From: a virus
Direction: 5' to 3' (one strand)
IMG/VR virus record: IMGVR_UViG_3300042888_001925
Coordinates: 1 to 48,048 of that record
Length of the DNA: 48,048 nucleotides
Shown here: positions 3,374-40,814 of the stretch, piece after piece
Layout of the letters: the number at the start of each line of letters is the position of its first letter
Position numbering within the stretch: the first letter of the stretch is position 1
The notes under the pieces: generated by a model
What the model saw: only the letters and a program-made list of their open reading frames with translations
Told to the model about the DNA's origin: nothing
The model's database searches: none
Made by a program: the position numbers and the translations under genes

Positions 3374-3397
3374 TTTTGTTGCCCATAAGTAGAACTA

Positions 3398-3405: not shown

Positions 3406-3413
3406 GGTATTCT

Positions 3414-4256: not shown

Positions 4257-4285
4257 CATCTAATGCCCAGGAAATTGCCGACATA

Positions 4286-4471: not shown

Positions 4472-4977
4472 TGTTAGACATTGATCAAGTCACTCAAGAT
4501 ATCCTGCACTGGGTAGAGAACTTTGTAGAAGTTCCACATCCTGCACTGGGCAATTGGGCTCCTTGCCCATTTGCTAGAAAAGCACGACTGTCGGGCACAG
4601 TCAAAGTTGTTGTCGGGTCAGACCCATATTTTGATCTATTCACCCGCTGCAGAGACGGCCTAGGCACAGCAGAAGTCATAGTGTATGCTTATGATCCTGC
4701 AGAATGGGACTATACCACATTCCATTCTAGCCTAGACCAGGCCAATCGCGAATTTTTACTAGCAAATGATTTGTTGGTGTTAGAAGATCATCCTGCTGAC
4801 CCTGAAATTGTCAACGGCATCAGCATGAATCAAGGCACCTATGCCCTGGCCATGTTGCAAAGTCTCAGCAAACTGAACACAGCAGCAGCGCAAATGCATC
4901 ACAAAGGATTTTACGACTCCTGGCCTGATGATTATCTCGCAACACTGTTCAATCATAGACAGGATCCTAGATCATGA
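4471..4977 (+). CDS. DUF1415-like protein of unknown function
   Basis: The 168-residue protein has an N-terminal pattern of WVENFVEV, then a WAPCPFARKARLSG segment and VKVVV, which parallels the WVE...LCPFA...V pattern of the DUF1415 family found in bacteria. The biochemical role of that family is not established. The start codon shares a base with the preceding stop (TAATG) and the end overlaps the next gene by ATGA, so translation is coupled along the operon that begins with the gp26-like gene. There is no signal peptide or membrane segment. The family assignment rests on one motif region and is tentative; a structural or host-interaction role cannot be excluded. Confidence 0.5.
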   Translation: MLDIDQVTQDILHWVENFVEVPHPALGNWAPCPFARKARLSGTVKVVVGSDPYFDLFTRCRDGLGTAEVIVYAYDPAEWDYTTFHSSLDQANREFLLANDLLVLEDHPADPEIVNGISMNQGTYALAMLQSLSKLNTAAAQMHHKGFYDSWPDDYLATLFNHRQDPRS

Positions 4978-22017: not shown

Positions 22018-22398
22018 ATGGCAATGCAAACATTCATCGGATTTAACACTATCAATCAGGTCAAGAAGTTTACTCTAACTGATTTTCCATTGATCAAACA
22101 AGACCTGTTGAATGCATTCAATATACGCCAGGGCGAGTTGCCAGGTCGCCCAGACTACGGCACTATTTTGTGGAACTTTGTGTTTGAAAATCAAGTTGAA
22201 GAACTGCAAAACAACATTGTGAATGAAGTACAGCGTGTGGCCGGCGGCGATCCCAGAGTGTTTATTTCTGACATACAAGTGTTTCCTCAAGACAACGGCA
22301 TGCTAATACAACTTGAACTCACCATCAATCCCACAACAGATGCTGAACGACTAAGCATATTTTTTGACATAACCTCTCGACGAGCTAGTTACATTTAA
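22018..22398 (+). CDS. 25: Baseplate wedge protein gp25-like
   Basis: The 126-residue protein matches the gp25 family: a DFPLIKQDLLNAFNIRQGELPGRPDYGTILW segment ('r.g....p.yGt.lw...fe'), a helical NNIVNEVQRV and a final strand pair ending in FFDITSRR. gp25 sits at the inner baseplate and initiates sheath assembly; it is the conserved EPR-box-type sheath initiator of contractile systems, although the EPR triplet is here more like GRPDYG. The size agrees with T4 gp25 (132 aa). It lies directly ahead of gp6, as in many T4-like phages. A GGTAAATA box lies 5 nt before the ATG. Confidence 0.9.
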   Translation: MAMQTFIGFNTINQVKKFTLTDFPLIKQDLLNAFNIRQGELPGRPDYGTILWNFVFENQVEELQNNIVNEVQRVAGGDPRVFISDIQVFPQDNGMLIQLELTINPTTDAERLSIFFDITSRRASYI

Positions 22399-22458: not shown

Positions 22459-25400
22459 ATGGCAACAACCACACGACAAACAGCTATATTTGGTGTTGAA
22501 GACTGGAAACAGATCTATCAAACCTATCGAGAAGCTGACTTCCAAAGCTACGATTTTGAAACTCTACGCAAGAGTTTTGTTGACTATTTGCGATTGTATT
22601 ATCCAGAAACATTTAATGACTACATTGAAAGTTCAGAATTTATTGCGCTGTTGGACGTTATTGCGTTCATGGGACAAGCACTGGCTTTTCGTACTGATCT
22701 CAACACCCGTGAAAATTATCTAGACACCGCAGAACGTCAAGACTCAGTTAACCGTCTTGCTGACTTGGTCAGCTACACTGCCAAGCGTAACACTGCGGCA
22801 GAAGGCCTGCTCAAGGTATTTTCAGTAGTCACTACCGAAAACGTTGTGGACTATAATGGCGTTAATCTTTCTAACGTCACAGTGGACTGGGCTGATCCTA
22901 CCAATCCTGACTGGCAAGAACAATTCACAGCAATTATCAATGCCAGTCTAGTGGACACACAAAAAATTGGCCGCCCTGGAAATCGTCAAACATTGCTGGG
23001 TGTACGTACTGATGAATATGCTGTTAACTTGGTACCTGGATTCCTACCAGTTATCCCTTACGCATCTACCGTTGACGGCATAAACATGCCATTTGAAGCA
23101 GTGACTTCAACATCAGTTGGTGAAGATTACTTGTATGAACCAAGTCCACAACCTAATCAGCCGTTTAATGTATTGTTCCGTAACGATCAACTGGGATTCA
23201 GTTCAAACAACACAGGCTATTTTTTCATGTTCAAACAAGGCGTGTTGCAAAATCAAGATTTCAACTTGGCTGAACGCATTGCAAATCGCACAGTAAACAT
23301 CAATGTTGAAGGTATTAACAATCAAGACCGATGGCTGTTCCAGTTGGACAATGTTGGCACAATTACACGTGAATGGCAATTTGTGGAAAATGTTTACTCT
23401 GCTGGCGCCGAACAGCTGGGCACAACACTGCGTCCAATCTACAGTGTGACCAGCCGTGTGAACGATCAAATCACCATGGTGTTTGGTGACGGTGTGTTCT
23501 CTGAGATTCCAGTGGGCACCTTCCGTGCTTATGTCCGAGCCAGCAACGGTTTGCAATACATTATTAATCCTGAAGAGATGCAAGCAGTCACACTGCCAAT
23601 CAGTTATATCAGTCGTTCAGGCAATCTTGAAACTATCACATTCACTTGCGGTATCACACAACCAGTAAGCAACAGTCAGTCTCGTGAACCCATTGCTGAA
23701 ATCAAACAACGAGCTCCTGCTCGTTACTACACACAGAATCGCATGGTCAACGGAGAAGACTATAACTTGTTTCCGTACACACAGTACAACAGTATTCTCA
23801 AATCTAAAGCAGTGAACCGTGCCAGCATTGGTACCAGCCGATACCTAGACCTGGTGGACAACACTGGCAAATACAGTTCAACCAATACTTTTGGCAGTGA
23901 CGGCGGCATCTGGGAACAACTGATACTGCCAACAATTAATTTTACCTGGGATACACGCAATGAAATTGCTGACGTGATCACCAATCAGGTGCAGCCGCAG
24001 ATAGGCCAATCAACCATGCGTCAGTTCTACTACGCTAACTTTCCTCGTGAAAACGTAAACACTGGGCTAACACTGGGCAGCACTTGGCAGCAAAGCACTA
24101 CATTGGCAAATGAAACCACTGGCTATTTTAAAAATGCCGCAGGAACACCTATTCCTGTTGGAATATCAGCTGGCACATTGAGTCCATTCTACTACGCTAT
24201 TGTGGGCAGCTTGGTCAAGTTTATTCCTCCTGCTGGCTACTATTTTGATCGTAACAATCGATTGGTACAAGGTAGTCCTACTCGTGCTGATGAAAGACTA
24301 GAAATATGGGCAAGCCCCATGGACGTGATTGCCGACGGAATGAACAACGGTCTTGGTAATCTATCATCTGGTGCTGGCCCAATTACAATCAATAACTTTG
24401 TGCCAACAGGTGCAATAGTGGACACAATTATTCCATTGTTTGTGACTGATTTGCCACTAGATCTTGAAACCACAATAAGTGAACAAATTGTTTTGTATCG
24501 AAACTTTGGTCTTGGCTACGACAATGACGGCAGCGTTACTGGAACTGCATATTCCTGGTACCTGATTACCAGCACAAACTTGGATCAAGATGCTACCTGG
24601 AGTCAGGCCAATGCTGGCAGTCAAACTGGCCAGGGACTTGATGCATCATGGTTGATACAGTTTGTGACCGCAAACAACAACTATACTATCACATTCCGTG
24701 GCCTGGCTTACAGTTTTGGAAGTGTGCTGCAAACACGATTTTTCTTTTATGATGGACAGCAAGTTTACGACAGTCGCACAGGCACTGTGATCAAAGATTT
24801 TATCAACTGCTTGGCAGTCAACCCCCAGCCAGACTCTACAGAGAGCCTGCCTGGCGACATCATAATGACCATTATTGGTCAGCCTGTTGAAAGCGACGGA
24901 TATGTTGATGACTTCCAGGTGTTGGTCAGCTATCGTGACAGCGACAACGACGGTGTTCCTGACAATCCTGATTTCTTTGATGAAATTGTTGCACCCACTG
25001 TTAATCCCACACAGAAATATGTGTTCCTGCAACAAACTGTGGACTTTGATAACTTGCAGCGATACTTGTTGGTAGAGCCTGATCGAGTTACCAGCGACTA
25101 CGCCACACTAGATGACATTGAGTTGGTCAAGAGTGAATGGAGTCCGGGACAAGTGTTCTATGCCTATGATCAAGTCAACAACGATGGTACCACAGGTGCA
25201 TTTTATGAACTCAGTATTGGAGCCACAGGTGTTCGAACAATTGTGGCAGTGTCTGGTTGGATTGCTAGAACTGGACGACAAAGTTTGTACTATCAGTACC
25301 GTCATAATAGTCCGTTGACCAATCGTATTGATCCTGGCACAACCAACATCATTGACTTGTATGTTGCAACACAGGCTTATTATACTGCGTATCAAAATTG

Positions 25401-25917
25401 GATCCGCGACACCACAAACACTGTGCCAAAACCTGATGTGCCAACCATTGACGAACTCAACACTGCATACCAAGGATTGCAAAATTACAAGATGATCAGT
25501 GACAACATTGTCATGAACTCTGTGCAATTCAAACCGTTGTTTGGCGTCAAAGCTGCGCCCGAATTACGTGCAACTATCAAAGTTATTAGAGCCAGTAATT
25601 CAACCGCGTCAATCAGTGAGATCAAGAGCTCAGTGGTTGCAGAAATGAACAGCTACTTTAGCATTGACAAATGGAATTTTGGCGACACCTTTTATTTCTC
25701 AGAAGTATCAGCATATTTGCACAGCCAATTGGGAACCATTATTAGTTCAGTGGTCTTGGTACCACTGAATACCCAAAAGAGCTTTGGTGATCTGTATGAA
25801 ATCAGATCAGCTCCCAATGAGTTGTTTGTAAATGCAGCAACCATTGACAACATAGAAGTGATTGATGCCTTGACCAGCACTAACTTACGTACAGCACCAG
25901 GAAGCGGAGTAATCTAA
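22459..25917 (+). CDS. 6: Baseplate wedge protein gp6-like
   Basis: The 1152-residue protein starts with a gp6-type N-terminus: FQSYDFETLRKSFVDYLRLYYPETFNDYIESSEFIALLDVIAFMGQALAFRTDLNTRENYLDTA. gp6 and its relatives (gpJ family) form the dimeric iris ring that holds the wedges of contractile tails together. A strand-rich middle (NGLQYIINPEEMQAVTLPIS, then EPIAEIKQRAPARYYTQNRMV, a baseplate J-like stretch) and a C-terminal wedge fold (IVMNSVQFKPLFGVKAAPEL... to VVLVPLNTQKSFGDLYEI) follow. It is well over the 660 residues of T4 gp6, as in other marine T4-like phages. The stop shares a base with the start of the giant gene, preceded by GGAG. Confidence 0.87.
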   Translation: MATTTRQTAIFGVEDWKQIYQTYREADFQSYDFETLRKSFVDYLRLYYPETFNDYIESSEFIALLDVIAFMGQALAFRTDLNTRENYLDTAERQDSVNRLADLVSYTAKRNTAAEGLLKVFSVVTTENVVDYNGVNLSNVTVDWADPTNPDWQEQFTAIINASLVDTQKIGRPGNRQTLLGVRTDEYAVNLVPGFLPVIPYASTVDGINMPFEAVTSTSVGEDYLYEPSPQPNQPFNVLFRNDQLGFSSNNTGYFFMFKQGVLQNQDFNLAERIANRTVNINVEGINNQDRWLFQLDNVGTITREWQFVENVYSAGAEQLGTTLRPIYSVTSRVNDQITMVFGDGVFSEIPVGTFRAYVRASNGLQYIINPEEMQAVTLPISYISRSGNLETITFTCGITQPVSNSQSREPIAEIKQRAPARYYTQNRMVNGEDYNLFPYTQYNSILKSKAVNRASIGTSRYLDLVDNTGKYSSTNTFGSDGGIWEQLILPTINFTWDTRNEIADVITNQVQPQIGQSTMRQFYYANFPRENVNTGLTLGSTWQQSTTLANETTGYFKNAAGTPIPVGISAGTLSPFYYAIVGSLVKFIPPAGYYFDRNNRLVQGSPTRADERLEIWASPMDVIADGMNNGLGNLSSGAGPITINNFVPTGAIVDTIIPLFVTDLPLDLETTISEQIVLYRNFGLGYDNDGSVTGTAYSWYLITSTNLDQDATWSQANAGSQTGQGLDASWLIQFVTANNNYTITFRGLAYSFGSVLQTRFFFYDGQQVYDSRTGTVIKDFINCLAVNPQPDSTESLPGDIIMTIIGQPVESDGYVDDFQVLVSYRDSDNDGVPDNPDFFDEIVAPTVNPTQKYVFLQQTVDFDNLQRYLLVEPDRVTSDYATLDDIELVKSEWSPGQVFYAYDQVNNDGTTGAFYELSIGATGVRTIVAVSGWIARTGRQSLYYQYRHNSPLTNRIDPGTTNIIDLYVATQAYYTAYQNWIRDTTNTVPKPDVPTIDELNTAYQGLQNYKMISDNIVMNSVQFKPLFGVKAAPELRATIKVIRASNSTASISEIKSSVVAEMNSYFSIDKWNFGDTFYFSEVSAYLHSQLGTIISSVVLVPLNTQKSFGDLYEIRSAPNELFVNAATIDNIEVIDALTSTNLRTAPGSGVI

Positions 25918-28900
25918 TGGCAACTACTCGTTCGGTAGACTTTCTCCCACAGATTTTTCAAACTGAGACCAACAAGCAGTTTTTGGCTGCCACACTGGAT
26001 CAACTGATTCAAGAACCCAAATTTAAAAAAACACAAGGTTATATTGGCCGCACAGTGGGTCCTGGCATAAACCCCAATGACAAATATGTGGTTGAACCAA
26101 GTACCACTCGTGCTGACTATCAACTAGAACCAGGTGTTATCAGTCTTGAACCAGACACTGATAAAATTAAAAATGCAATTACCTATCCTGGGATCAATGA
26201 TGCTGTGCAATTCAATGGCGGCAACGAAACACGACCAGATCGACTGTATGCCAGTGAGTACTACACATGGGATCCGTTTGTAAACTTTGATACTTTTGTA
26301 AATTTTAGTCAATACTTTTGGTTGCCATCTGGCCCTGCCGCAGTAGACGTGGCTGCCACTGGCGTCCCTACCACTGATAATTTTGTGGTCAATCGAGAAA
26401 ACGGTGTTTACACATTCTCGGGTGTGGCTGGCAGCAATCCTGTGATTGAACTGGTTCGTGGCGGAAGTTACACTTTTCAAGTGGCACAAAATGCCAAAGA
26501 AACAGTGAACTATCGAGTGTCCAATGTTGGAATATCAGCTTATCAAATTGATTACCAGCCCAATCCTGCACTAACGCTGGCTCGCGGCAACACCTATGTG
26601 TTCAATCTGAATCTCAATGGCAACTATCCTTTTTGGATCAAAACAGCAGCCACCACCGGAGTTGGTGATGCTTATAACTCTGGAGTGAGTCGCAACGGTG
26701 CGTTGATTGGACTGGTAACATTTACTGTGCCGCAAGACGCACCAGATACTCTGTACTATGCTAGCCAAACACAAGCCAACATGCAAGGCGTTCTTAATAT
26801 TGTTGACGGTGATGCTGGCACTGGCCCAGGTTTCTGGATACAGGCTGCCCCTGGCATTTCTGGCAAAGTGCCCACTACTCCAAATATTAGTTCACGAGAT
26901 GTGTTGGGAGTGGTCAACAATGGTGAAGACCTTGGCCAAATCACATTCAACGTTCCTTTAAAAACTGCACAGTCGTTTTACTACGGCTTGACAGATTTTG
27001 GTCCAATAGATTTAATTTGTGATCTCAAATTCAATCAAATCAACAACGTGTCTGTTGAAGAATTTATGTCTGCCTACGGCGGCATTGACGGGATTACCAA
27101 TCTTAATGGTCGCACCCTGGTCTTCACTGAACCTGTTACTGATGCACAAGCAGGCGGCTGGCAACAAACTACTTTGTATGATCCGTTGCCAGAGAACAGC
27201 ACATTCAACGCTCAACCAGGCAGTTTTGACACTGTATTTTTTGATCAAACAACTGACATTGCTCCAGCAGATCGTTATCAGTTGTGGCAGATCAATTATG
27301 TGACGCTGGGTGCGTATACCTATATGACCTTGGTCAAAATTAATACAATACCTAATCTCAACAAGTTTAGAATTTTGTACGGTTCAACCTACAGCAGCAC
27401 TCAATGGTACAAGAACAACACTGGAGTGTTTGAACAAATTCCTTTGCTGACTGCAATACAAGATACCTTGTACTATCAAGACGGCACAGATCCAGAAATT
27501 TTTGGACGTATTAAATTGTTGGAACAGGCATCTGCTAGCACCATAGACGTTGATGAAATTTTAGGACAAGCAAATTACGTCAGTCCAAACGGTGTGGCAT
27601 TTACCAATGGTCTCAAGGTCAAATTCATTGGTGATGTGATTCCAGCCAATTATGCATCAGGTACGTTTAACTTGCTGTGTACGTCGGCAGAATTTGGTAC
27701 AAACTACATCACCACGGCTAGCACAGCCAACCTATATGTGGGTGAGCAGATTACATTCTCAGTGCCAACTATTGGTGGCCTAACACCCGGAACCTACTAT
27801 ATTCAAAGCGTTGCTCCTAACGGAATACAATTTACTGTTTCTGTTCAGCAGTACGGAACACCTGTGGTATTAAGCCCTGGTACAGCCAATGTCACAGCAA
27901 TTGTAACCAGCAATTTAGAATACTACGTGAGCAATGTGGGCACTGCAATTGAATTATTGCCAGTAACTGACTATATAACTCCTGAAACTTACGTGGTTGA
28001 TAACGATACCACTACTATAAATGCTGAGCCAGATACACTGGATTATTTGACCATTGATCGTGCCAGCAAAGATCTGAATCCGTGGACTCGTAGCAATCGT
28101 TGGTTCCACCTTGATGTGATCAATGCCACGGCTGAATACAACAACACCACCGCAGCTTTTGACAATGCCTACAGAGCCAAACGACCAATCATTGAGTTCC
28201 GTCCTGGCGTTAGACTCTGGAACATGGGAACCGATGGCAAACAACCAGTTGACATAATTGACTTTGAAGAAACTGATGCCTTTAGTAACATACAAGGCTC
28301 CACTGGCTACACAGTAGATGGATACGAACTAATTGACGGTAGTAGAATTATTTTTGCAGCCGACGAAGACGCGGATGTCAAAAACAAAATCTATGTAGTG
28401 AGTTTTATTAATCCAGACACCGTGAGTCCGTTGATTTCGCAACCTATTATCAATTTGACTCTAGCTTCTGACGGTGTAGTGTTGACTGACCAGTCCACAG
28501 TGTGTGTTGCTGGCGAGACTTTGGTAGGACTGACTTTTTGGTTTGATGGCTCCGACTGGGCACAAGCGCAACAAAAGACTGGAGTACAACAAGCTCCGTT
28601 GTTTAATGTTTATGATCCCACTGGTGTAAGTTTTGGTGACCAAACAAAATATCAAAGTTCAACCTTTACCGGCAGCAAGTTGTTTAGTTACGCAGTTGGG
28701 GACACAGGCATTCTTGACCCTGTGCTGCAATTTCCGTTGCAATACTTGAACATCAACAACGTTGGCGACATTGTGTTTGAAAACAATCTATACAAAGATA
28801 CATTCTTGTATGTGTTGGACAACGCCAGTGTAACATCAAATATCAGTTCAGGCAGTGTGCGTGATTACACTTCACGTGTTGTTTACAATCGTGAAATTGG

Positions 28901-31900
28901 ATGGCAAACAGCAGCGAGTGAAAGTCAGATTCGTCAGCAGTTTAAATTTTCATATTCTGGTGCAACACTAAAACTAGATGTGCGTGTTGACGACTCGCTG
29001 AACAATATACCACCAATCAAATTATATGTGGGCTCAGTGTTTCAGGCACCGAGCACCTATAGCTATACTAGAACTAGCAATAGTACTACAATTACACTGG
29101 GCAAAACTTATGTGCTTGGTGATATTATTGAAGTAGCGGTTCTTAGTGGCCAAACCAGTCAAGTAGCGTTTTATCAAGTTCCAATTAACTTGCAGAACAA
29201 TCCGTTAAACGGCAACAGCGATAGTTTTACTCTGGGCACAATTCGTACTCATTACGAAAGTATCTGTGAAAATTTAACCACTGTGTCTGGAACCATCAAT
29301 GGAGCCAACAACACACGGGACCTTGGAAATATTGTTCCTTACGGCTTAACCATCCTGCAACAGAGCGCACCATTGACCCTGGCTGGATATTTCATGCGCA
29401 GCCCAACGTTCAATGTGTTTAGTTCGTTAAACTATAACGATCGCGAATACAACAAGTTTAAGTATCAATTGTTGGATGCAGTTACCAAACAAAATATTGA
29501 GTTTAACACCACTGCTCAGGTGTTGGACACAGCCATTGAAGAAATTACACTGGGTCGAGTTGAAACACAACCTTTCTATTGGTCAGACATGTTACCCAGT
29601 GGTGCAGTGTACACTACCACAAACTACACAGTGAGTTTGACCAGCACAAATACTTTTGACACAGTACAAGTTTACAACTACACGTCAGCAAACTATCTTG
29701 GTATGAATGTATATCTCAACGATGTAATTCTTACTCGTGGAGTTGATTACACTGTGCCAGCAGACGGTCCGCGTATTGTGGTCAGTGCTGCATTGACACT
29801 GGGTGATCAGTTGACCATTCAAGAATACACTGCAACCTACAGCAGCTTTGTTCCCAACACACCTACTAAAATGGGTTTGTATGCTGCGTATATTCCTGGT
29901 ATTCTCACCCAACAAACCAGCACTGGATTTATACAGGTCATACAAGGCCACGACGGGTCTATTACACCAATCTTTGGAGACCTACGTGACGATGTGTTGT
30001 TGGAGTTTGAAACTAGAATTTACAACAATCTCAAACTTGATGGCAATCCAGTTCCAATGACCATATACGATGTGTTACCAGGACAGTTTAGAGACACTGG
30101 GTTTACCTATGCTGAAATTAGCTCAGTGTTCAATGAAGATTTTTTGAACTATGTGGGTGGCAACAAGCTGGATTACAAATCCCAACAGTACATTGCTACC
30201 AATCAGTTTACCTGGAACTACAGTTCTGCACAAAACAAACTCAACAACGAAACGCTGTTGGGCGCCTGGCGCGGCATCTATCGTTATTTTTACGACACTG
30301 AACAACCTCAATATACTCCTTGGGAAATGTTGGGCATCACAGAACAACCGTCTTGGTGGGAACTCACATATGGACCTGCTCCGTATACCTCTGGTAACAC
30401 TGTGTTATGGGACGATTTGGAAGCTGGCTTAGTAAATGATCCAATTGCTCCTTATGTAAAAACTGATTTTGTGCGTCCAGGGCTAAGTCAGGTGATTCCA
30501 GTAGATGACGAAGGTAACTTGTTGAGCCCGTTTGATTCTGTGGTTGGAACATATAACCAAACTCAATTCCAGAAAAGTTGGGCATCAGGTGACGGCAGTC
30601 CTGTTGAAGCGTCGTGGTGGAACAGCAGCAGCTATCCATTTGCAGTGATGCAAGTGTTGGCAGTGACTCGACCAGCTAAATTCTTTGCATTGTTTGCTGA
30701 TCGTGATTTGTATCGTTACAGCGAAGAATATGGTCAGTACCTATACAATGAGAGATATCGTCTGGATGCAAACGGTGTTGAAGTGTACGGCGATGGCACA
30801 AGCAAAGCCAGTTATATCAACTGGATAGTAGACTACAATCGTCAAACTGGTGTTAACTCTACCACAGAACTCACCGCTGATCTCAAGAGCCTGGATGTGC
30901 GACTGTGTTATAGAATGGCCAGCTTTAGCGACAAACAGTACATCAAGATTTATACTGAAAAGTCCAGTCCTAATTCAACCAATACTGCACTGTTGATACC
31001 TGACGAAAGCTATGACTTGTTGTTGTACAAAAACCAACCGTTTGATCGTTCTAGTTATTCAGCGGTAGTTGTGCAAAAAGTTGACAATGGATATTCTGTA
31101 TTTGGATATGGCACAAGTTTGCCTTATTTCAATATTCTTGAAAGCAAAGCCACCGGATTACTGCAAACAATTTCATCTGGTGGTGTGACTGTTCGTGTGC
31201 CCACGTTCTATACTAACACAGTAACACAAGTTCCGTACGGTTTTATTTTTACAAATGAAACCAGTGTTTGCGATTTCTTACTGAGTTATGGCAAGTTACT
31301 GGAAAGAGAAGGACTAACTTTTACTGATCAGTCCAACGGCTATATCTTGACCTGGAATCAAATGTGTCAAGAATTCTTGTACTGGAGTCAGCAAGGATGG
31401 GATACCAACGCATTGTTGAACTTGAACCCGTTGGCAATGAAACTTACTGTGACCAGAGAACAAGCAATTGTTGACAGTATCAGGGTACAAACCATTGACA
31501 ATGTGCTGCTAGATCAAAATCGCAGAGAACTAAACACTCGAAATCTAAATATTGTACGTATTGGAAATACTTTCAGTTGTGAGCCATTGACTAATCAAAC
31601 ATTGAGCTTTATTGATCTCAAGTTTACAACATATGAACACATGATTGTACTGAACAATCAAAGTGTGTTTGGCGATTTAATTTATGCACCAATCACCGGC
31701 GCACGACAAAGCCGATTGAACTTGGTTTGCGTGAATACCACAGACTGGACTGGACAAGTTGACGCACCTGGATTTATTCTCAATCAAGACAATGTTGAAG
31801 AATGGACAGGATTACGAACTTATGCAAAAGGTGAAATTGTCAAATACAAAAATGTGTACTGGTCGGCTCTGACTATTGTTCAACCCAGTATCAAGTTTAA

Positions 31901-34900
31901 TTTTGGCGACTGGACTCAAAGTGATTACACACAACTTGAACTGGGACTGTTGCCAAACTTGAGCAACAAAGCCAATCAGTTGACCAACACCTACGATATC
32001 AATTCGGCCAACATTGAACGTGACAACGATTTGTTGTCGTATGGATTGATTGGATTCCGTCCTCGTCAGTACATGGCGGCACTGAATCTTGATGATGTGA
32101 GTCAGGTCAATGTGTATCGTCAGTTCTTGGGATCCAAAGGCACCATCCTTAGCGCCGAATTGTTTTCCAATGCTAATCTTGGCAAAGAAGCTGCTGACTA
32201 TGACATTTATGAAAACTGGGCAGTTCAACGTGCTGTGTACGGTGCAAATGCTAACCGTAGCTTTTTTGAATTACGATTGAATCGTGCGTTGTTAAACTCT
32301 AACCCCAGCTTGGTACAAGTGGTGTTGCCTGGTCAAGAATCTGAAGCTGACCAACCAATACTGTTGAGTGATGTGTGGCGACAAAGTTACAAGTTAACTA
32401 GCCCAGATATTTTACCAACCACAACAGAACCAATTACTGATGCAGCATTGCCTACCGCCGGCTATGTGAATCTTGACGATGCTGACATCACAGTATTTGA
32501 CATCAATGACTTGGCCAACGTCAATGCAAACATTGATCAAATAGGTGTGGGAACCAGTATTTGGGTTGCTAAAATAAACAACTACGACTGGAACATTTAC
32601 CGTGCGCAAGCGGTACCTGGCGCAATTCAGCACGTTTGCGACAACTTGGACAATACTAGTCGTGTGATCTTTAGTCAACAACACGGTCTTGTTGCAGGAG
32701 ACACATTAATTATCAAGTTCTTTGATGTAGAAGTTGATGGAGTGTATGAAGTGGTGAGTGTGCCTAACCTTACCACAGTAAATATTGTATTCCAATTTGC
32801 AGGAGACCGTGTGGTTGCCAATGGCACAGGACTTGGATTTACTTTGCAAACCATGCGTGTGGCACAAGCAAGCGACATTGTTAACTTGCCATACGCTAAT
32901 GATATACTGCCAGGTGCCAAAGTTTGGGTAGACAACAATGGATCTGGCAACTGGGAAGTTCTTGAAAAACAGGAAGTGTTTACAGATGTTGCACAAATCA
33001 GTCCATTGTTGTTGGACGCAACAGAACACTTTGGATCTAGTGTTGCACAAGCAACCAACCGACTGGCCATGTTGGTTGGCAGTCCTCGTTACAATCATGC
33101 CAGCGGCAGCAATACCGGCGCGGTATATGTGTATGTAAAAAACTACGGTGATCAATATTCACCAGTAAGTCCCGTAGCCAATGCTGACGGAATTCTTTCT
33201 TTGACCATTACAGGAGCCAGAGGTTTTGGTAATGCTGTAGACTTTGGCAACCAAGAATGGGCAGCAGCAGGTGCTAGTGCTAGCTGGGGACCAAACGGGG
33301 CCGGCGAAGCTGATTCAGGATATGCCGCAGTTATCTATCGAGATCCTGCACTGGGACAACCAGGTGTTAATCCTTATGCAGTTTGGCAATTGTTAACACA
33401 GCCTGGCACAACCACCACTACCACACCGGGTGCTGGAGAATTTGGCTACAGCGTGGCTATGAGTCTTGATGAACGTTGGATGTATATTGGAGCACCTGGC
33501 CTCAACCAAGTACATGCTTATGGTCGAGTAGACTGGGAACAACAATTTGTTAAAGCTCTAGGTAATGACAGCACCGCCAGTTATAACATTTCGCAGACAA
33601 TTCAAATTGATGACGATTCTCAATTGATTGTTACCATTGACGGACAGGTGCAGTTGCTGGGCACAGATTACACTGTTACACTTGCTGGCGGTGTGTACAC
33701 CACAGTGGTGTTTACTACCGCACCAGCAGCTGGGACTTTGGTTAACATTACTAGAATCTATGCCAAACAACTTGACGCACAAACTTATTTTGATGTAACT
33801 CAAAGTGCAACTTCTGGTGTTGGAGTTGGTGCTGAATTCACAATAGTGCGTGTTCGCAACGAAGTAGGACAACCAGGTTCAACTGACGGTCCCACTGTTG
33901 GAGTAACAACTGCTGGCACTGGCTATGTAAATGGAAACACAGTAACTATTGCTGCTAGCAGCTTTGGTGGTCAAGCAGATATTGTGCTAACAATAACAAG
34001 TGTTAGTGGTTCAGGCGGCATTACAGGATTTAATATTGCGTATGTTCCAGTGAGCTTGACCACAGTGTTTAGTCTAAATGAATTATTTTTCACAGTTGAC
34101 AACATCTATTCGTTCAGTATCACAGTTGATGGAGAAATATATCGTCCCAACATTGATTATACATACAATGTTGGCACAGGTGATATTACTTTTGTAACTG
34201 TTCCAGCAGCAGGCACTGTGATTGTTGCCACAGCTCAGGGGTATTTTGAATATGTCAACACTCTAACTACTGCTGGTCTCATTGCAGGAGATCGTTTTGG
34301 ACAAAGCGTAAGTTGTTCAACCGATGGGCGTCAAATAATGATTGGTGCGCCTGATAAAACAGTAAATGGCAAAGTTGAAGCAGGCGCAGTGTATGTGTTT
34401 GACCGTAATGTACAACGTTTCATTTATGGGGAAGATGGCAGCACTGTTGACTTTACCTTGCTTGGCACACCAGTTGGACCAATTAGCGTAATTGTTAATA
34501 ATGTGTTCTTTGTCAACGAGGCTGATTCAACAATTGGTGCTCCCAACAGTTTTTACTGGGACGGCGCAAACACAGTTACAATTGTCAACGCTGATTTAAG
34601 ATTTGGTGATGTGATTGAAATTGAAACCAACCAATTTTCACTGATACAAACAGTTTCTCAAGCCACCGTGGCTGAATTTTCAAACTTTGGTCAAAGTGTA
34701 GATTTGTGTGCTTACAATTGCAGTTTGTATGTGGGCGAACCACAAAGCAGTATTCAAATCTTCAAAGGTGGAGTGGTAGAACGTGCAGTAAATCAAAGCC
34801 GTGTATACGGAACTGTCACCGCAGGCGCTGCCAATCCTGCACTGACTGCTGGCAATACTGTTCGTGTCAACAACATGGATGTGACTGTACCCAATGCTTG

Positions 34901-37900
34901 GAGTAGTCTGAGTACCTACGCCAAGAACACTGTGGTATACAATTTAAGCGGTGGGACATACACAATTTATGTGTCCATACAGTCAGTACCATCAAGCACA
35001 GCAATTACCAACACTTCATACTGGCAATCAGTAACCACTACCACTGTGGCAGCAAGTGTCAGTGTGCGTGCCTTGGCTGCACAAATCAACGTCGCGGTAC
35101 CTAATGTAAGTGCTACTGTGAGTACCACTGGATACCTAACTGTTGCAGTAAAAAACAGTGCTGCGGCCGCAGAATTTAATAAACTACAAGTTGCACCTGG
35201 CAGTGTTGGAATAGCATTCACCACACTGGATTTCAGTACCTTTGTTCATACACAAGTTATTGTTAGTCCGTATCCGGTAGAAATGGGTGGGTTTGGTGCA
35301 ACTATCAGTATTGATGATACTGCCACAGCGCTGGCCGTGGGCACACCGAACGGCACATTGTACCTGATTACGATATTCGACGACGGCACAACTGACTTCG
35401 ACGTTGGTAGTACCATATTCTTCAGCACTGTAAATCAAAGCGGTGCAGTGTACACATATGATTACTTGCCTAGTTCTAGCCCAAGTGTAACCAATCCAGG
35501 AAACTTTGTGTTTGGACAACAAATTTCCAATAGCGAAGTAAAAGAATACGACCAGTTTGGCTTTGCCTTGAACTACACATCAGGTGTGTTGGTAGTAGGT
35601 GCGCCATACAACGATGTAGAAGATAGCACAGCAGCATTTGGCAGAGTATTTGTGTTTGAAAATGCAAACCGTACACCAGCCTGGACAGTGCTGCGAGAGC
35701 AACAGCCTGTGGTTGATATTCGACTGTTAAACTCGGTGTTTACATACGATAGAATCACCAGTGCAACCACTCAATTCTATGACTTCTTTGATCCATTGCA
35801 AGGCAAAATACTTGGCGCTGCAAGACAAAACATTGACTATATTTCGGGTATTGATCCAGCAAACTACAATATTGGGCCCACTGGCATTAACGGAGCAACT
35901 TGGACAGCAGAGCATGTAGGACAAGTATGGTGGGATATCAGTAGTGTTAGATTTATTGATCCAAACCAGGACGACATTGTTTATGCTAGTCGTCGATGGG
36001 GTCAGGTATTTCCTGGATCAAGCATAGATGTATATCAATGGGTACTGAGTTCAGTACCACCTTCTGACTACACTGGCCCTGGCGTACCACAAAATACACT
36101 GAGCTACAGTATTAACAGTCGTCTTGGTCGTGATGGCATTTTTGCTACAGAATATTATTTCTGGGTGCGCGGTGTTACAAGCACAGCCACTCAGCAAGGC
36201 AAAACACTCAGTGTAGAAACAGTGGCACAGTACATTGGTAATCCAAGAGGATCTGGTATCAGTTATGTTGCTCCGATCAATGCCAGCACAATTGCATTGT
36301 ACAATGCTGGCGAATATATTGAAGCATTTGATACCGTAATCAACATTGAATTTGATAGAGAATACACCAATGACAATGTTCACGTTGAGTATGAACTGAT
36401 TGGTCAAGATAAACCAGATGCATTCCTGAGCGATAACCTGTATCGAAAACTGCAAGACAGTTTCTGCGGTGTTGACACATTTGGTAATTTGGTTCCTGAT
36501 CCAGGTTTAAGCATTGCTGAACGCTACGGCGTGCAGTTCCGCCCAAGGCAGAGCATGTTTGTTGATCGCTTTGACGCTCTTAAAAACTACTTGACTCGAG
36601 CCAACAATGTACTGGCTCTGTATCCCATTAGCGAAAGTCGCAGTTTTAATCTACTTAATTCAGCAGAACCAGAACCATCTGCAAACTCAGAATTATGGAA
36701 CTTGCGAGTTGCTAATTTAGAAATTTTGGGATTCCAAAATATCAATTCAGTTGCTCTAGGTTACAAGTATCTAGTGGTCAGTGACAGCGATAATCGGGGA
36801 CTGTGGACAATCTATACTGTACAAGCAAATGATCAAGTGCCTGGCACCCGCGAATTATTGCTGACTAGAGTTCAAGGTTATAATACCACAGATTACTGGA
36901 GTTACATCAACTGGTATCGTCCTGGTTATAATTCCAGCAGCAAAATTATTGCTGAAGTGGCCAATATTGCTGCACTAGATGTATTATCTGTGGCAGTTGG
37001 CAGCAGTGCAAAAGTCACAGCAAACAGTCAAGGTAAATTTGAGATTTATTTGCTAGAAGACACTGGTTGGAGTCGCGTTGGACTCGAAGACGGCACTATT
37101 GAATTCAGTGCTGAACTATGGGACTACGCACTAGGACGATTTGGTTTTGACATTGAAGTGTTTGACGCTCAGTACTATGACCAAGAGCCAGTGATTGAAA
37201 CACGAAAAATAATTCAGGCAATTAACGAAGAATTGTTTGTGGATGATCTAATATTAGAACGAAATCGTGCATTGACTCTGATGTTTAATTATGTGTTGAG
37301 CGAGTTCTCTGCACCTGAATGGCTGGTCAAAACTTCACTGATCGATGTTGATCATAGAATCCGCGATCTTACTCCGTACCAGAACTATCGTCAAGACAAT
37401 CAAGAGTTTGTGTTGGACTATATTCAGGAAGTCAAACCTTATCATGTGCAAATACGTGAATTTAATTTAAGATACAATGGCTTTGATGATTTTCTTGGCA
37501 CACTAACTGACTTTGACTTGCCTGCATACTATGACACTACTCTGACCGTTCCTCAGTATACTAGTCCAATCTTACTGCCATACGATCACGGCACTGCCCA
37601 AGTCAGCAATGTGCTTAGTGATTTACCATCAACTAGCACAGTATGGAGCAATTTTCCGTACAATCAATGGTACAACAACTATCTGTTGACAGTTACATCT
37701 ATTGAAATGATTACTGGTCGTTTTGGTACAGGCTATACTGAACCGCCACAGGTAATTATTACTGGAGATGCAGTTGAACCTGCGGAAGCAGAAGCCATCA
37801 TCAACAGTCTTGGACAAGTTGTAGCGGTAACAGTTACCAATCCAGGTTCGGGCTACAACACCATTCCTGTTGTGACGTTTGATGGCGGCAACGGATCTGG

Positions 37901-40814
37901 TGCTCAAGCAGTTGTGCGAGCTGAAAATGCAATGGTTCGTAGTTTTACTACTACCATGAAATTTGATCGATGCCAATATGTGACCAGCATCTATGAATGG
38001 AGCTCTACCGCGATTTATCAAACTGGACAAATGGTACGTTATGATGATCGAGTTTGGATGGCAACTAGCGACGATTCTACACCGGTTGTTGGACCAACGT
38101 TTGATCTTGCCAATTGGACAGAAGTTGATCCTGGTACACTAAGTGGTGTAGATCGTACCATGGGACTGTATGTGCCTGGTGTTAATCAGCCTGGACTTGA
38201 ATTGCCATTGCTGATTGACGGAGTTGATTATCCAGGTGTACAGGTGTACGGTGATTATTTCTTGGGCAATCCGCTCAACACTGATGCTGTGTTTGAAAGC
38301 GAATTTGTTGACCCTACTCTGGGAGAAAGATTTACCAGCGTCAATATCGACGGCGGCCAATTTGTTGGACTCTACGAAGGACATGCACCAGAAGAACTGG
38401 TCAATGGTGCAGAATACGATACTCTGGACATGAGAGTGTATACTCGTCCGGGCAGCGATTGGCAATTTGATGGTCACGGATTTGAAATAGCAACAGTTCG
38501 CTACACATATGATTCAGCAATCACTGATACCTATAGTTGGGCTGCATTACTAGAACATCCAGTGCAGGTACTAGTAAGCAATCAAACAACGGGTCGAGAT
38601 CTTGTACAGAATATTGACTACTCAGTTGATTGGGTTAATCAAACTATCACAGTAATTGATAATACAAGCAATGAAGATATTATCAATATTTCTGTATACG
38701 AGCTGGGTGGCGGAGCACAGTTGTTCCGCGGCAATTATGTTGGCAACGAAGTTGGCGATTCAGTAGTAATACCAGTAAGCACTAGCGAAATACAAACAGT
38801 GGCTGTGTTTCTTAACAGCGCAAATATTTCAGGAATAACATGGGAACCTTATATTGATTCTGTTGCCTGGAATTTGTTTAGCAGTTATGAAAAACTTGAT
38901 GTGGTAAACAACAGCGGCAGCTATTATAGAGCACTGCAAAATGTACCAGTTGGCACCGACATTACTAACATTGTTTATTGGGAGTTGTTTGTTCCTGCTA
39001 CCGAAAGTATTGTATTTTTTAACACCACTGTTGTATCTACTGATGGTATTGCGTTAGTAGCGTTTGGCATTGAATACACCACTGAAATTGGTGCCAGCGC
39101 ATTAGAATTAGGACAAACTTACAGAATCAACACTGTGGGAACCACTAACTTTATCACAGTTGGTGCTGCTGTAAACACAGTGGGAACAGAATTTACTGCA
39201 ACTGGCACCGCAGCAGGAACTGGCACCGCAACTATTGCATACAGTTGGAGCACTGCTCAGGTTGATACATTTGTTGCAGATGATACTATTGTATCTAGTC
39301 GTACATTAAATTTGGATATTGACTCAGGTGGAACCAACCCTGCCAATATGGTAGTAACCAAGAATGGACTACGACTTCGTCCTGCAGATGGCATTGAATG
39401 GATCAGTGATGGCAGCACACTGGGATTTGGTTTTCCATCACGTGGTGGGTACTCTCAACAGATTATCAATGCAGCCACTGATGTCAAAGTATGGGTCGAC
39501 GGGATACTACAAGTACAAAGTGTTGGTTTGATCACTGGAGCTTATAGTGTTACTGTATGGTCAGGAGCTGAAGACCGTCAGGTGATATTTGTTACTGCAC
39601 CTGATGCTGGTGCTGCTATTTTGATCTCAGTAAGCACAGTGGCTGACTATGATGTGGCTGCCGCCTCAATTGAAATCATATCACCGCCTAATCTTGGAGA
39701 TGTGTTCCAGGTCATTGGATGGAACGACACTCGTCAACAAAATGCACTAACCTTGGTGTTCCAGGGACCGGTGACTACTGGTATCACTGTGGTTGAACCA
39801 TATGATAGCACCGACTTTGATTCTGGTACACTGTCTGATGATCCAGGCAGCTATGACTACAGTGAAGGAACTTCTATTCCTGTCAACGATTTTTGGCTAC
39901 AGCGAGCCGATGTAAATCCAAGCAGACTTTGGGTCACGTTAAACGGCATTAGACAATTTGAAGGTGAAAATTTTGTGGTCGAGGGCGAATACTTGATTCT
40001 AGCATCCGGCGCAATTGGTTCTGCTGACATAATGGTAATTACTGAATTTACTGATTCTGTTGTGCCAGAAGCCATGGCATTCCGTATCTATCAAGACATG
40101 CGCGGCGTGCAAGGCACCTACAGAATTACTGCTGCAACAACCACTGCGGTATCACAAGCTGTGTCTGCTACTGCTGACATAATTTATGTTGACAATGCCG
40201 CTGCCTTGAGCGAGCCAGATTTACCAAACGGTATATTTGGTGTTATCACCATTGGTGGCGAACGTATCATGTACCGTGTACGAGATACTGCACTGAACTT
40301 TGTAAGCAGCTTGCTTCGTGGTACTGCTGGATCAGGCGCAGCGGAACATGTGACAGGAACACCTGTTTACGATATCAGTCGCGGCAATTTGCTGATTGCT
40401 GAATATCAGGACTACGTTGAAAGTGATACGCTAATTGGCGACGGATCAAGTACAATATTCCATGCTGATCCTCTCAAACTTGAAATTGACACAACCAATG
40501 AAGACAGCACATTTGATGTTCGTAGTTTAGAAGTGTATGTGGGCGGCGTGCGTCAGTATGCTTACAACGACACTACTGTAGCAATTGAAACTGGTCAATA
40601 CCGCTGGGAAATTGCTGAGTTTACACCACTAGCCATTGAGTTTGTGACACAAACTACATACCCTGAACTCGTTGCGCCACCAGCAGGTGTTGAAGTTACC
40701 ATGTTGGTACGCAAAGGCGTCACATGGTATGCGCCTGGAGTAGGAACTCCTAGTGACGGTAATGCACTGCAAGAAACCAATACTCCGGCCGCAAGGTTCT
40801 TGCGCGGCTTATAA
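25917..40814 (+). CDS. Giant baseplate-associated protein (4965 aa) with FG-GAP propeller, CBM-like and cupredoxin-like domains
   Basis: One uninterrupted frame of 14.9 kb. The N-terminus (TRSVDFLPQIFQTETNKQF...QEPKFKKTQGYIGR) resembles large structural proteins of marine T4-like phages and stands where T4 has gp7, the wedge initiator. Residues ~175-298 are cupredoxin-like, but SQTQANM stands where copper ligands CxxHxxM would be. Seven FG-GAP repeats begin at F2372, F2437, F2509, F2794, F2924, F3126 and F3214, the number needed for an integrin-alpha-like propeller. Four modules resembling chitin-binding CBM5/12 domains (W...Y..G..V.Y....Y.A...YW) start near residues 1961, 2993, 4026 and 4316. 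Several fibre-type strand repeats (ELGQTYRINTVGTTNFITVG, PGSGYNTIPVVTFDGG) fill the C-terminal part. Likely jobs are wedge scaffold and host glycan contact; gp7 equivalence is an inference from position and the N-terminus. It is about five times the length of T4 gp7 (1032 aa). Confidence 0.75.
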   Translation: MATTRSVDFLPQIFQTETNKQFLAATLDQLIQEPKFKKTQGYIGRTVGPGINPNDKYVVEPSTTRADYQLEPGVISLEPDTDKIKNAITYPGINDAVQFNGGNETRPDRLYASEYYTWDPFVNFDTFVNFSQYFWLPSGPAAVDVAATGVPTTDNFVVNRENGVYTFSGVAGSNPVIELVRGGSYTFQVAQNAKETVNYRVSNVGISAYQIDYQPNPALTLARGNTYVFNLNLNGNYPFWIKTAATTGVGDAYNSGVSRNGALIGLVTFTVPQDAPDTLYYASQTQANMQGVLNIVDGDAGTGPGFWIQAAPGISGKVPTTPNISSRDVLGVVNNGEDLGQITFNVPLKTAQSFYYGLTDFGPIDLICDLKFNQINNVSVEEFMSAYGGIDGITNLNGRTLVFTEPVTDAQAGGWQQTTLYDPLPENSTFNAQPGSFDTVFFDQTTDIAPADRYQLWQINYVTLGAYTYMTLVKINTIPNLNKFRILYGSTYSSTQWYKNNTGVFEQIPLLTAIQDTLYYQDGTDPEIFGRIKLLEQASASTIDVDEILGQANYVSPNGVAFTNGLKVKFIGDVIPANYASGTFNLLCTSAEFGTNYITTASTANLYVGEQITFSVPTIGGLTPGTYYIQSVAPNGIQFTVSVQQYGTPVVLSPGTANVTAIVTSNLEYYVSNVGTAIELLPVTDYITPETYVVDNDTTTINAEPDTLDYLTIDRASKDLNPWTRSNRWFHLDVINATAEYNNTTAAFDNAYRAKRPIIEFRPGVRLWNMGTDGKQPVDIIDFEETDAFSNIQGSTGYTVDGYELIDGSRIIFAADEDADVKNKIYVVSFINPDTVSPLISQPIINLTLASDGVVLTDQSTVCVAGETLVGLTFWFDGSDWAQAQQKTGVQQAPLFNVYDPTGVSFGDQTKYQSSTFTGSKLFSYAVGDTGILDPVLQFPLQYLNINNVGDIVFENNLYKDTFLYVLDNASVTSNISSGSVRDYTSRVVYNREIGWQTAASESQIRQQFKFSYSGATLKLDVRVDDSLNNIPPIKLYVGSVFQAPSTYSYTRTSNSTTITLGKTYVLGDIIEVAVLSGQTSQVAFYQVPINLQNNPLNGNSDSFTLGTIRTHYESICENLTTVSGTINGANNTRDLGNIVPYGLTILQQSAPLTLAGYFMRSPTFNVFSSLNYNDREYNKFKYQLLDAVTKQNIEFNTTAQVLDTAIEEITLGRVETQPFYWSDMLPSGAVYTTTNYTVSLTSTNTFDTVQVYNYTSANYLGMNVYLNDVILTRGVDYTVPADGPRIVVSAALTLGDQLTIQEYTATYSSFVPNTPTKMGLYAAYIPGILTQQTSTGFIQVIQGHDGSITPIFGDLRDDVLLEFETRIYNNLKLDGNPVPMTIYDVLPGQFRDTGFTYAEISSVFNEDFLNYVGGNKLDYKSQQYIATNQFTWNYSSAQNKLNNETLLGAWRGIYRYFYDTEQPQYTPWEMLGITEQPSWWELTYGPAPYTSGNTVLWDDLEAGLVNDPIAPYVKTDFVRPGLSQVIPVDDEGNLLSPFDSVVGTYNQTQFQKSWASGDGSPVEASWWNSSSYPFAVMQVLAVTRPAKFFALFADRDLYRYSEEYGQYLYNERYRLDANGVEVYGDGTSKASYINWIVDYNRQTGVNSTTELTADLKSLDVRLCYRMASFSDKQYIKIYTEKSSPNSTNTALLIPDESYDLLLYKNQPFDRSSYSAVVVQKVDNGYSVFGYGTSLPYFNILESKATGLLQTISSGGVTVRVPTFYTNTVTQVPYGFIFTNETSVCDFLLSYGKLLEREGLTFTDQSNGYILTWNQMCQEFLYWSQQGWDTNALLNLNPLAMKLTVTREQAIVDSIRVQTIDNVLLDQNRRELNTRNLNIVRIGNTFSCEPLTNQTLSFIDLKFTTYEHMIVLNNQSVFGDLIYAPITGARQSRLNLVCVNTTDWTGQVDAPGFILNQDNVEEWTGLRTYAKGEIVKYKNVYWSALTIVQPSIKFNFGDWTQSDYTQLELGLLPNLSNKANQLTNTYDINSANIERDNDLLSYGLIGFRPRQYMAALNLDDVSQVNVYRQFLGSKGTILSAELFSNANLGKEAADYDIYENWAVQRAVYGANANRSFFELRLNRALLNSNPSLVQVVLPGQESEADQPILLSDVWRQSYKLTSPDILPTTTEPITDAALPTAGYVNLDDADITVFDINDLANVNANIDQIGVGTSIWVAKINNYDWNIYRAQAVPGAIQHVCDNLDNTSRVIFSQQHGLVAGDTLIIKFFDVEVDGVYEVVSVPNLTTVNIVFQFAGDRVVANGTGLGFTLQTMRVAQASDIVNLPYANDILPGAKVWVDNNGSGNWEVLEKQEVFTDVAQISPLLLDATEHFGSSVAQATNRLAMLVGSPRYNHASGSNTGAVYVYVKNYGDQYSPVSPVANADGILSLTITGARGFGNAVDFGNQEWAAAGASASWGPNGAGEADSGYAAVIYRDPALGQPGVNPYAVWQLLTQPGTTTTTTPGAGEFGYSVAMSLDERWMYIGAPGLNQVHAYGRVDWEQQFVKALGNDSTASYNISQTIQIDDDSQLIVTIDGQVQLLGTDYTVTLAGGVYTTVVFTTAPAAGTLVNITRIYAKQLDAQTYFDVTQSATSGVGVGAEFTIVRVRNEVGQPGSTDGPTVGVTTAGTGYVNGNTVTIAASSFGGQADIVLTITSVSGSGGITGFNIAYVPVSLTTVFSLNELFFTVDNIYSFSITVDGEIYRPNIDYTYNVGTGDITFVTVPAAGTVIVATAQGYFEYVNTLTTAGLIAGDRFGQSVSCSTDGRQIMIGAPDKTVNGKVEAGAVYVFDRNVQRFIYGEDGSTVDFTLLGTPVGPISVIVNNVFFVNEADSTIGAPNSFYWDGANTVTIVNADLRFGDVIEIETNQFSLIQTVSQATVAEFSNFGQSVDLCAYNCSLYVGEPQSSIQIFKGGVVERAVNQSRVYGTVTAGAANPALTAGNTVRVNNMDVTVPNAWSSLSTYAKNTVVYNLSGGTYTIYVSIQSVPSSTAITNTSYWQSVTTTTVAASVSVRALAAQINVAVPNVSATVSTTGYLTVAVKNSAAAAEFNKLQVAPGSVGIAFTTLDFSTFVHTQVIVSPYPVEMGGFGATISIDDTATALAVGTPNGTLYLITIFDDGTTDFDVGSTIFFSTVNQSGAVYTYDYLPSSSPSVTNPGNFVFGQQISNSEVKEYDQFGFALNYTSGVLVVGAPYNDVEDSTAAFGRVFVFENANRTPAWTVLREQQPVVDIRLLNSVFTYDRITSATTQFYDFFDPLQGKILGAARQNIDYISGIDPANYNIGPTGINGATWTAEHVGQVWWDISSVRFIDPNQDDIVYASRRWGQVFPGSSIDVYQWVLSSVPPSDYTGPGVPQNTLSYSINSRLGRDGIFATEYYFWVRGVTSTATQQGKTLSVETVAQYIGNPRGSGISYVAPINASTIALYNAGEYIEAFDTVINIEFDREYTNDNVHVEYELIGQDKPDAFLSDNLYRKLQDSFCGVDTFGNLVPDPGLSIAERYGVQFRPRQSMFVDRFDALKNYLTRANNVLALYPISESRSFNLLNSAEPEPSANSELWNLRVANLEILGFQNINSVALGYKYLVVSDSDNRGLWTIYTVQANDQVPGTRELLLTRVQGYNTTDYWSYINWYRPGYNSSSKIIAEVANIAALDVLSVAVGSSAKVTANSQGKFEIYLLEDTGWSRVGLEDGTIEFSAELWDYALGRFGFDIEVFDAQYYDQEPVIETRKIIQAINEELFVDDLILERNRALTLMFNYVLSEFSAPEWLVKTSLIDVDHRIRDLTPYQNYRQDNQEFVLDYIQEVKPYHVQIREFNLRYNGFDDFLGTLTDFDLPAYYDTTLTVPQYTSPILLPYDHGTAQVSNVLSDLPSTSTVWSNFPYNQWYNNYLLTVTSIEMITGRFGTGYTEPPQVIITGDAVEPAEAEAIINSLGQVVAVTVTNPGSGYNTIPVVTFDGGNGSGAQAVVRAENAMVRSFTTTMKFDRCQYVTSIYEWSSTAIYQTGQMVRYDDRVWMATSDDSTPVVGPTFDLANWTEVDPGTLSGVDRTMGLYVPGVNQPGLELPLLIDGVDYPGVQVYGDYFLGNPLNTDAVFESEFVDPTLGERFTSVNIDGGQFVGLYEGHAPEELVNGAEYDTLDMRVYTRPGSDWQFDGHGFEIATVRYTYDSAITDTYSWAALLEHPVQVLVSNQTTGRDLVQNIDYSVDWVNQTITVIDNTSNEDIINISVYELGGGAQLFRGNYVGNEVGDSVVIPVSTSEIQTVAVFLNSANISGITWEPYIDSVAWNLFSSYEKLDVVNNSGSYYRALQNVPVGTDITNIVYWELFVPATESIVFFNTTVVSTDGIALVAFGIEYTTEIGASALELGQTYRINTVGTTNFITVGAAVNTVGTEFTATGTAAGTGTATIAYSWSTAQVDTFVADDTIVSSRTLNLDIDSGGTNPANMVVTKNGLRLRPADGIEWISDGSTLGFGFPSRGGYSQQIINAATDVKVWVDGILQVQSVGLITGAYSVTVWSGAEDRQVIFVTAPDAGAAILISVSTVADYDVAAASIEIISPPNLGDVFQVIGWNDTRQQNALTLVFQGPVTTGITVVEPYDSTDFDSGTLSDDPGSYDYSEGTSIPVNDFWLQRADVNPSRLWVTLNGIRQFEGENFVVEGEYLILASGAIGSADIMVITEFTDSVVPEAMAFRIYQDMRGVQGTYRITAATTTAVSQAVSATADIIYVDNAAALSEPDLPNGIFGVITIGGERIMYRVRDTALNFVSSLLRGTAGSGAAEHVTGTPVYDISRGNLLIAEYQDYVESDTLIGDGSSTIFHADPLKLEIDTTNEDSTFDVRSLEVYVGGVRQYAYNDTTVAIETGQYRWEIAEFTPLAIEFVTQTTYPELVAPPAGVEVTMLVRKGVTWYAPGVGTPSDGNALQETNTPAARFLRGL

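Follow-up and report, generated by a model that had tools for sequence, protein, structure and literature searches.

The stretch of DNA analysed here (the window, 48,048 bases) is the IMG/VR record IMGVR_UViG_3300042888_001925, from an uncultured giant bacterial virus, and it encodes a giant virion structural protein of 4965 amino acids (aa) whose residues 2353-3259 are strongly supported, by a predicted structure, as one seven-bladed FG-GAP beta-propeller of the integrin alpha type. This propeller would be a single pop-out domain set in a tolerant slot of a jumbo-phage virion protein associated with the baseplate wedge, displaying small modules for use in adsorption. We put the probability of this reading as a whole at about 0.5; its parts differ, the fold and the slot being nearly certain and display for adhesion, which we infer, falling just short of an even chance.

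A preliminary description of the sequence had proposed seven FG-GAP repeats in the 4965-aa protein, and all seven FG motifs (at residues 2372, 2437, 2509, 2794, 2924, 3126 and 3214) are present in the open reading frame (ORF) 25917-40814. The turn proposed to follow each of them is found in six, which fit the pattern FG...[VILAM]G[APTSE]P, and F2437 has no proline turn. The pattern occurs six times in the whole protein, always within the claimed region; 500 residue shuffles produced it 0.14 times on average and never more than twice. Successive FG motifs are 65, 72, 285, 130, 202 and 88 residues apart, in agreement with the long spacings of about 285, 130 and 202 residues reported between blades 3-4, 4-5 and 5-6. 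Membership of the FG-GAP family was borne out by the Pfam profile FG-GAP_2 (PF14312; E 3.6e-16, 59.5 bits against a cut-off of 23), of which just three stretches of the window protein exceed the threshold singly, four of the seven units lying below it; PF01839 was not among the Pfam matches for the window. Conservation was examined in 94 representatives, clustered below 88% identity, of 163 sequences from IMG/VR loci, the other 93 being 41-86% identical to the window propeller region. The pair [FYWL]G is retained at the seven FG positions in 93, 94, 93, 92, 93, 94 and 90 of these 94 relatives, and the glycine alone in 93, 94, 94, 94, 93, 94 and 91.

Residues 2230-3320 were modelled with AlphaFold2 from 94 sequences and with no templates. 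The propeller model has a mean predicted local distance difference test score (pLDDT) of 88.8 and a predicted template modelling score of 0.86, with pLDDT below 50 confined to its C-terminal end, in parts of model residues 1038-1091. In a structural alignment against 966 chains, all 50 among the matches listed were integrin entries, the best being alphaM/beta2 (PDB 9t3y_A; Z 39.7, root-mean-square deviation (rmsd) 2.7 Å over 366 residues, 18% identity), and the integrin alignment spans model residues 124-1030, that is, protein residues 2353-3259. An integrin also came first in the Foldseek search (E 2e-7), with low template modelling scores and an rmsd above 17 Å in the rows inspected and with unrelated propellers also among its matches; this poor superposition is attributed to the inserts described below. 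In sequence searches of PDB, neither the whole protein nor alignment A3 matched any entry. Model and structural alignment together support the single integrin-alpha-type propeller of seven blades that had been anticipated, and neither of the outcomes named beforehand as refuting it, a lack of FG-GAP profile matches or a predicted fold without seven blades, was observed; the region was correctly placed, and the folded domain is slightly wider than first proposed (residues 2353-3259, window 32973-35693). In the strand list of the model, most blades run from strand A, after the FG, through B and C to D. Strand D stops 11 residues short of the following FG in each of blades 3 to 6, and 15 residues short of it in blade 2. 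Only three residues make up the fourth strand in blade 1, and blade 6 has an extra hairpin. The blades are read from this list, in which the end strand closing the ring is not assigned. The protein and its predicted parts are as follows.

25917-40814, + strand: giant virion structural protein, 4965 aa (ORF; phrog_10938, PHROG E 1.7e-300)
28035-32606, + strand: left conserved core, residues about 707-2230 (alignment in six named phage homologues)
32607-32972, + strand: small pre-propeller domain, residues 2231-2352 (model residues 2-123; boundary inferred)
32973-35693, + strand: predicted seven-bladed FG-GAP / integrin-alpha-type beta-propeller, residues 2353-3259 (model and structural alignment)
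33030-33224, + strand: blade 1, FG at 2372, with a short fourth strand in the model (FG position, strand list)
33225-33440, + strand: blade 2, FG at 2437, without proline turn (motif, strand list)
33441-33530, + strand: blade 3 strands A-C, FG at 2509 (FG position, strand list)
33531-34241, + strand: blade 3 insert, about 237 aa, two T7-tail-fibre-N-like modules flanking a GSGY-type module (strand list, PF03906, module copies)
34242-34265, + strand: blade 3 strand D (strand list)
34296-34415, + strand: blade 4 strands A-C, FG at 2794 (FG position, strand list)
34416-34619, + strand: blade 4 insert, about 65 aa, T7-tail-like module (strand list; weak related copies elsewhere)
34626-34655, + strand: blade 4 strand D (strand list)
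34686-34805, + strand: blade 5 strands A-C, FG at 2924, conserved CxxxC (FG position, strand list)
34806-35237, + strand: blade 5 insert, about 145 aa, flagellin-IN-like module enclosing a CBM5/12-like module at 34884-35054 (strand list, CBM-like copies)
35241-35261, + strand: blade 5 strand D (strand list)
35292-35555, + strand: blade 6, FG at 3126 (FG position, strand list)
35556-35702, + strand: blade 7, FG at 3214 (FG position, strand list)
35703-37526, + strand: right conserved core, residues about 3263-3870 (alignment in six named phage homologues)

The large inserts that the preliminary description had placed between the blades are present, but the strand list puts them within blades 3, 4 and 5, after the third strand and before the fourth; there, strands C and D are about 237, 65 and 145 residues apart, with extra strands. 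For the blade 3 insert, the T7 tail-fibre N-terminal domain PF03906 was matched at E 0.0011 (19.1 bits, below the cut-off of 25.2), and for the blade 5 insert, Flagellin_IN gave weak matches in relatives. Several of these modules have related stretches elsewhere in the same protein: a profile of the first module of the blade 3 insert matched residues 1263-1303 (E 2.8e-5) and 4512-4575 (E 7.4e-5), and one of the CBM5/12-like module (2990-3046) matched 4317-4357 (E 2e-12) and, weakly, 1962-1981 (E 0.0079) and 4028-4043 (E 0.015), these E-values being generous, since one protein was searched. In a second model, residues 1958 to about 2006, the region of the weak copy at 1962-1981, matched chitin-binding domains (best Z 7.5, 45 residues, rmsd 1.1); Z below 8 can reflect a common arrangement, and many chitin-binding rows agree for this segment. 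Pfam CBM_5_12 had no match in the window. In relatives, other modules were detected, such as DUF2460 between the fifth and sixth units of L096, the blade 5 position (E 1.5e-6, 28.2 bits, below the cut-off of 30.4), or YHYH alongside FG-GAP units in the slot of L240:6332-10027 (E 2.2e-38), whose place relative to the blades is uncertain, the first unit being marginal. Among five near relatives, mean identity is 57-66% in the inserts, 57-86% in blade segments, 73-82% in core segments and 60-61% in the C-terminal part (3871-4965). The inserts thus evolve faster than the core, yet without hypervariability. In blade 5, each cysteine of the CxxxC motif (C2931 and C2935; window 34707-34721) is kept in 93 of the 94 relatives.

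The propeller occupies a slot between two conserved cores. The six named homologues aligned, from PA5oct, Phosso, Atu_ph07, SCTP-2, RaK2 and Vibrio phage 2.275, match window-protein residues 1-146, about 700-2230 and about 3248-3870, and the propeller gives negligible scores at most. Across the 57 named records listed with both cores, some of them RefSeq/GenBank duplicates, 54 have a core-to-core distance of 76-398 aa, while in the other three, which belong to two phages, Phosso and Atu_ph07, it reaches 1,520-1,527 aa; three further records (CM1, RAS14 and XacN1) gave a weak right-core match and stand outside the 57 listed. FG-GAP_2 was absent from PA5oct, SCTP-2, RaK2 and Vibrio phage 2.275; its matches in the Phosso (55) and Atu_ph07 (4) records searched are in genes other than the homologue, and the slot stretches of these two phages gave no Pfam match. 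Proteins of phrog_10938 (RaK2, PA5oct, 121Q, Atu_ph07 and others) therefore share with the window protein their family and a gene order beside wedge genes, but unlike it they have a slot either no longer than 398 aa or of about 1,520 aa without FG-GAP_2, and FG-GAP was rejected as a general trait of this family. Searches of named phages by tblastn gave no match to the window slot region and one weak match, in another Phosso protein, to the compact slot of the relative L212. Pattern matches in bacterial and archaeal genomes numbered 53, with no relative among them, so that no host is suggested.

Two further observations concern Phosso and Atu_ph07. The 55 FG-GAP_2 matches in the Sinorhizobium phage Phosso (PV764938) lie at about 48.4-68.9 kb and at 92.4-94.0 kb, many of them within two open frames of 3702 and 3182 aa. 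The slot of both phages (L017 and L018) contains several stretches like the GSGY-type module found at window residues about 3920-4000, and may hold tandem copies of it.

In searches for relatives, the best 80 of each were kept, and the carrier shares given here are not abundances. They yielded 215 distinct slots from 318 loci with both cores, out of 338 loci with an ORF of at least 300 aa, and FG-GAP units were found in 163 of the 215. Window-like slots (114) have seven units in 111 cases, six in two and eight in one; the other 101, the six named phages included, have none in 52 and three to seven in 49. No shuffled slot contained a unit (0/215). As the unit profile was derived from the window's own clade, the seven units in that clade are partly circular; in an independent Pfam check of ten slots, FG-GAP_2 was detected in 5/5 carriers and 0/5 non-carriers. 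Slots without units measure 87-2,393 aa, and the 49 others with units 550-1,485 aa. Six slots devoid of FG-GAP units (L194, L195, L197, L203, L242 and L249) are about 2,000-2,400 aa long and represent other large cargo at the same site, and another non-carrier slot (L310:7730-10033) gave weak matches to MtrC-MtrF_N (E 0.00018) and CBM_5_12 (E 0.0062), both below cut-off.

Trees of the left core were built from 83 rows, obtained by 70% clustering of 192 labelled cores, with the six loci of large unit-free slots left out. The 58 carriers and 25 non-carriers fall on opposite sides of one branch, with support of 100 (FastTree and a quick IQ-TREE run). The split is a single change in an unrooted tree, in which gain and loss are not distinguished; a single gain is the simpler reading because short slots are scattered among the non-carriers. 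The propeller itself is met in different sizes. That of L212 is free of inserts, with seven units spaced by 58, 76, 60, 64, 62 and 79 residues. Elsewhere among the relatives, common values lie close to 116-129, 188-206 or 281 residues for the third spacing and close to 60 or 113-144 for the fourth. The series looks as if modules of about 70 aa had been added singly, a reading of spacings in which units were missed in several slots. If forms are classed as compact or long by a slot length of 630 aa, at least seven changes between the two classes are needed among the 58 carriers.

Placement of the protein at the baseplate, as earlier proposed, agrees with the position of its gene beside baseplate wedge genes; the evidence for this location consists of gene order and of mass spectrometry on the virions of related phages. 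The PHROG families of the neighbouring genes are baseplate hub, baseplate wedge subunit and hub subunit with tail lysozyme; the names gp6-, gp25- and gp53-like are our own labels. The upstream genes with such assignments are the following.

22459-25917, + strand: baseplate wedge subunit, labelled gp6-like (phrog_10646, E 7.3e-281)
22018-22398, + strand: baseplate wedge subunit, labelled gp25-like (phrog_43, E 1.6e-12)
18697-20217, + strand: baseplate hub subunit and tail lysozyme (phrog_13211, E 1e-34)

The gene order is similar in PA5oct and RaK2, and the record of the PA5oct homologue notes its detection by mass spectrometry. In phage phAPEC6, gp245 (381.88 kDa, 17 unique peptides) is reported as a virion protein and adjoins the baseplate wedge protein gp244 (PMC7247149); it is taken here as a homologue from its place and size. 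The window gene follows the gp6-like wedge gene as gene 7 follows gene 6 in T4, and the two products differ in length (T4 gp7 1032 aa, window protein 4965 aa). A profile comparison with T4 gp7 gave a best E of 0.18, which is not significant, and a fold search with residues 1083-2245 gave no match under E 0.001, a result that does not exclude gp7 homology. Fold searching of the left core returned a chitin-binding-type module, weak pilin rows and nothing else, which is not evidence of a new fold.

The predicted propeller resembles that of integrin alpha in its seven FG-GAP blades and in its whole fold. In some integrins the propeller itself bears an inserted domain, located between blades 2 and 3, whereas the inserts of the window protein lie inside blades 3-5. 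Integrin alpha also has the calcium-site motif DxDxDG in some blades, thigh and calf domains, a membrane segment and a beta-subunit partner. Given the phage virion gene context, counterparts of the thigh and calf domains, the membrane segment and the beta partner are unlikely in this protein. Other viral FG-GAP propellers were found in BFVD, such as a 'hemagglutinin' of Atu_ph07, a virion protein of S-TIM5 and giant-virus proteins; their predicted folds are similar, but judged by names and lengths alone they look like other proteins. The top BFVD match, A0A6J5L8L4 from an uncultured phage, may be a relative. A literature search in open PMC, covering titles and the openings of abstracts, listed no paper describing a propeller of the FG-GAP or integrin type in any baseplate protein of a phage.

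The ends of a propeller lie close together, so that it can be inserted as one unit into a loop. In the proposed mechanism, the propeller would have entered the slot of the wedge-associated protein in this manner, and the C-D loops of blades 3, 4 and 5 would have given way to small modules, about 70 aa long or longer, whose types are found again in other parts of the protein. As a rigid disc on the wedge, the propeller would then hold the modules outward, where they could bind in a secondary way to glycans or other polymers of the cell surface while the phage adsorbs. In favour of this account are the FG-GAP_2 match, the retained FG positions, the model with its integrin alignment, the slot and the single branch that divides carriers from non-carriers; for the modules, their related copies, the chitin-binding-type fold at 1958-2006 and the different module of L096; and, for the place in the virion, the detection of homologues by mass spectrometry. 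A more specific version, which is only tentatively put forward, is that the lineage gained an integrin-type propeller once and then added or swapped binding modules in the loops of three blades. Equally tentative is the suggestion that such an adhesion chassis could form a tail-side counterpart of the integrin inserted domain, with a ring of multivalent binding discs on the virion.

Several results weigh against this explanation. The calcium motif D.[DNS].[DNS]G is absent from the window propeller, unlike integrin alpha, its sole match in residues 2230-3260 being at 2339, before the propeller; in the relatives, 0 to 2 calcium-like motifs each were counted without mapping to blades. Structural identity with T4 gp7 was not found by the profile and left-core fold searches. 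The module assignments are mostly weak or under Pfam cut-offs, and the CBM-like position holds a stretch of at least 40 aa in just 29 of the 94 relatives. The inserts have a mean entropy of 1.70 bits, against 1.74 and 1.92 in two classes of ordinary loops, and among the five near relatives their identity resembles that of the C-terminal part. This lack of hypervariability speaks against a primary role in host range.

The main rival is a docking platform, in which the propeller would be a socket or clamp for another virion protein, such as a fibre or a neighbouring wedge, and would not itself touch the cell. Propellers commonly serve as platforms on which proteins interact, and the good conservation of the strands and of several blades (86% mean identity for the blade 3 segment in near relatives) would suit a fixed internal partner, as would inserts that are not hypervariable. 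However, named relatives with the same gene order dispense with the propeller, and no partner gene confined to carriers turned up, no systematic search for one having been made. The even conservation keeps docking close, as a possible but not a probable account. It is improbable that the slot simply accepts any folded domain, the propeller and its inserts being structural filler with no binding role. The slots of relatives, which differ in length between about 90 and 2,400 aa and have contents unrelated to one another, would fit such neutral bulk, but each of the seven FG motifs has been retained by 90-94 of the 94 relatives, at 41-86% identity, and the tree has no loss inside the carrier side (58 representatives). 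Chance motifs without a propeller, to which the units below the Pfam threshold and the second unit without proline turn might point, were rejected as having next to no probability, given the shuffle controls, the FG conservation in 94 relatives, the confident model and the integrin structural match.

For most giant virion proteins of jumbo phages the annotation says no more than structural, and here a large part of one is given a confident fold. Across relatives its insertion site is met in near-empty, compact and elaborated forms, with carriers and non-carriers parted by one branch. The propeller with its loops may thus offer a testable model for the growth of giant tail proteins, in which one domain enters a slot and modules then enter its loops, and it could represent an unexplored adsorption organ in uncultured jumbo phages.

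Elsewhere in the window, an ORF of 983 aa (422-3373, minus strand) adjoins the hub-like gene and has no PHROG match at E 0.001. Residues 198-297 of the giant protein (window 26508-26807) resemble tail-fibre-like proteins of Prochlorococcus phages, with 44-46% identity among the matches listed, and the 256 records matching this segment are mostly from cyanophages.

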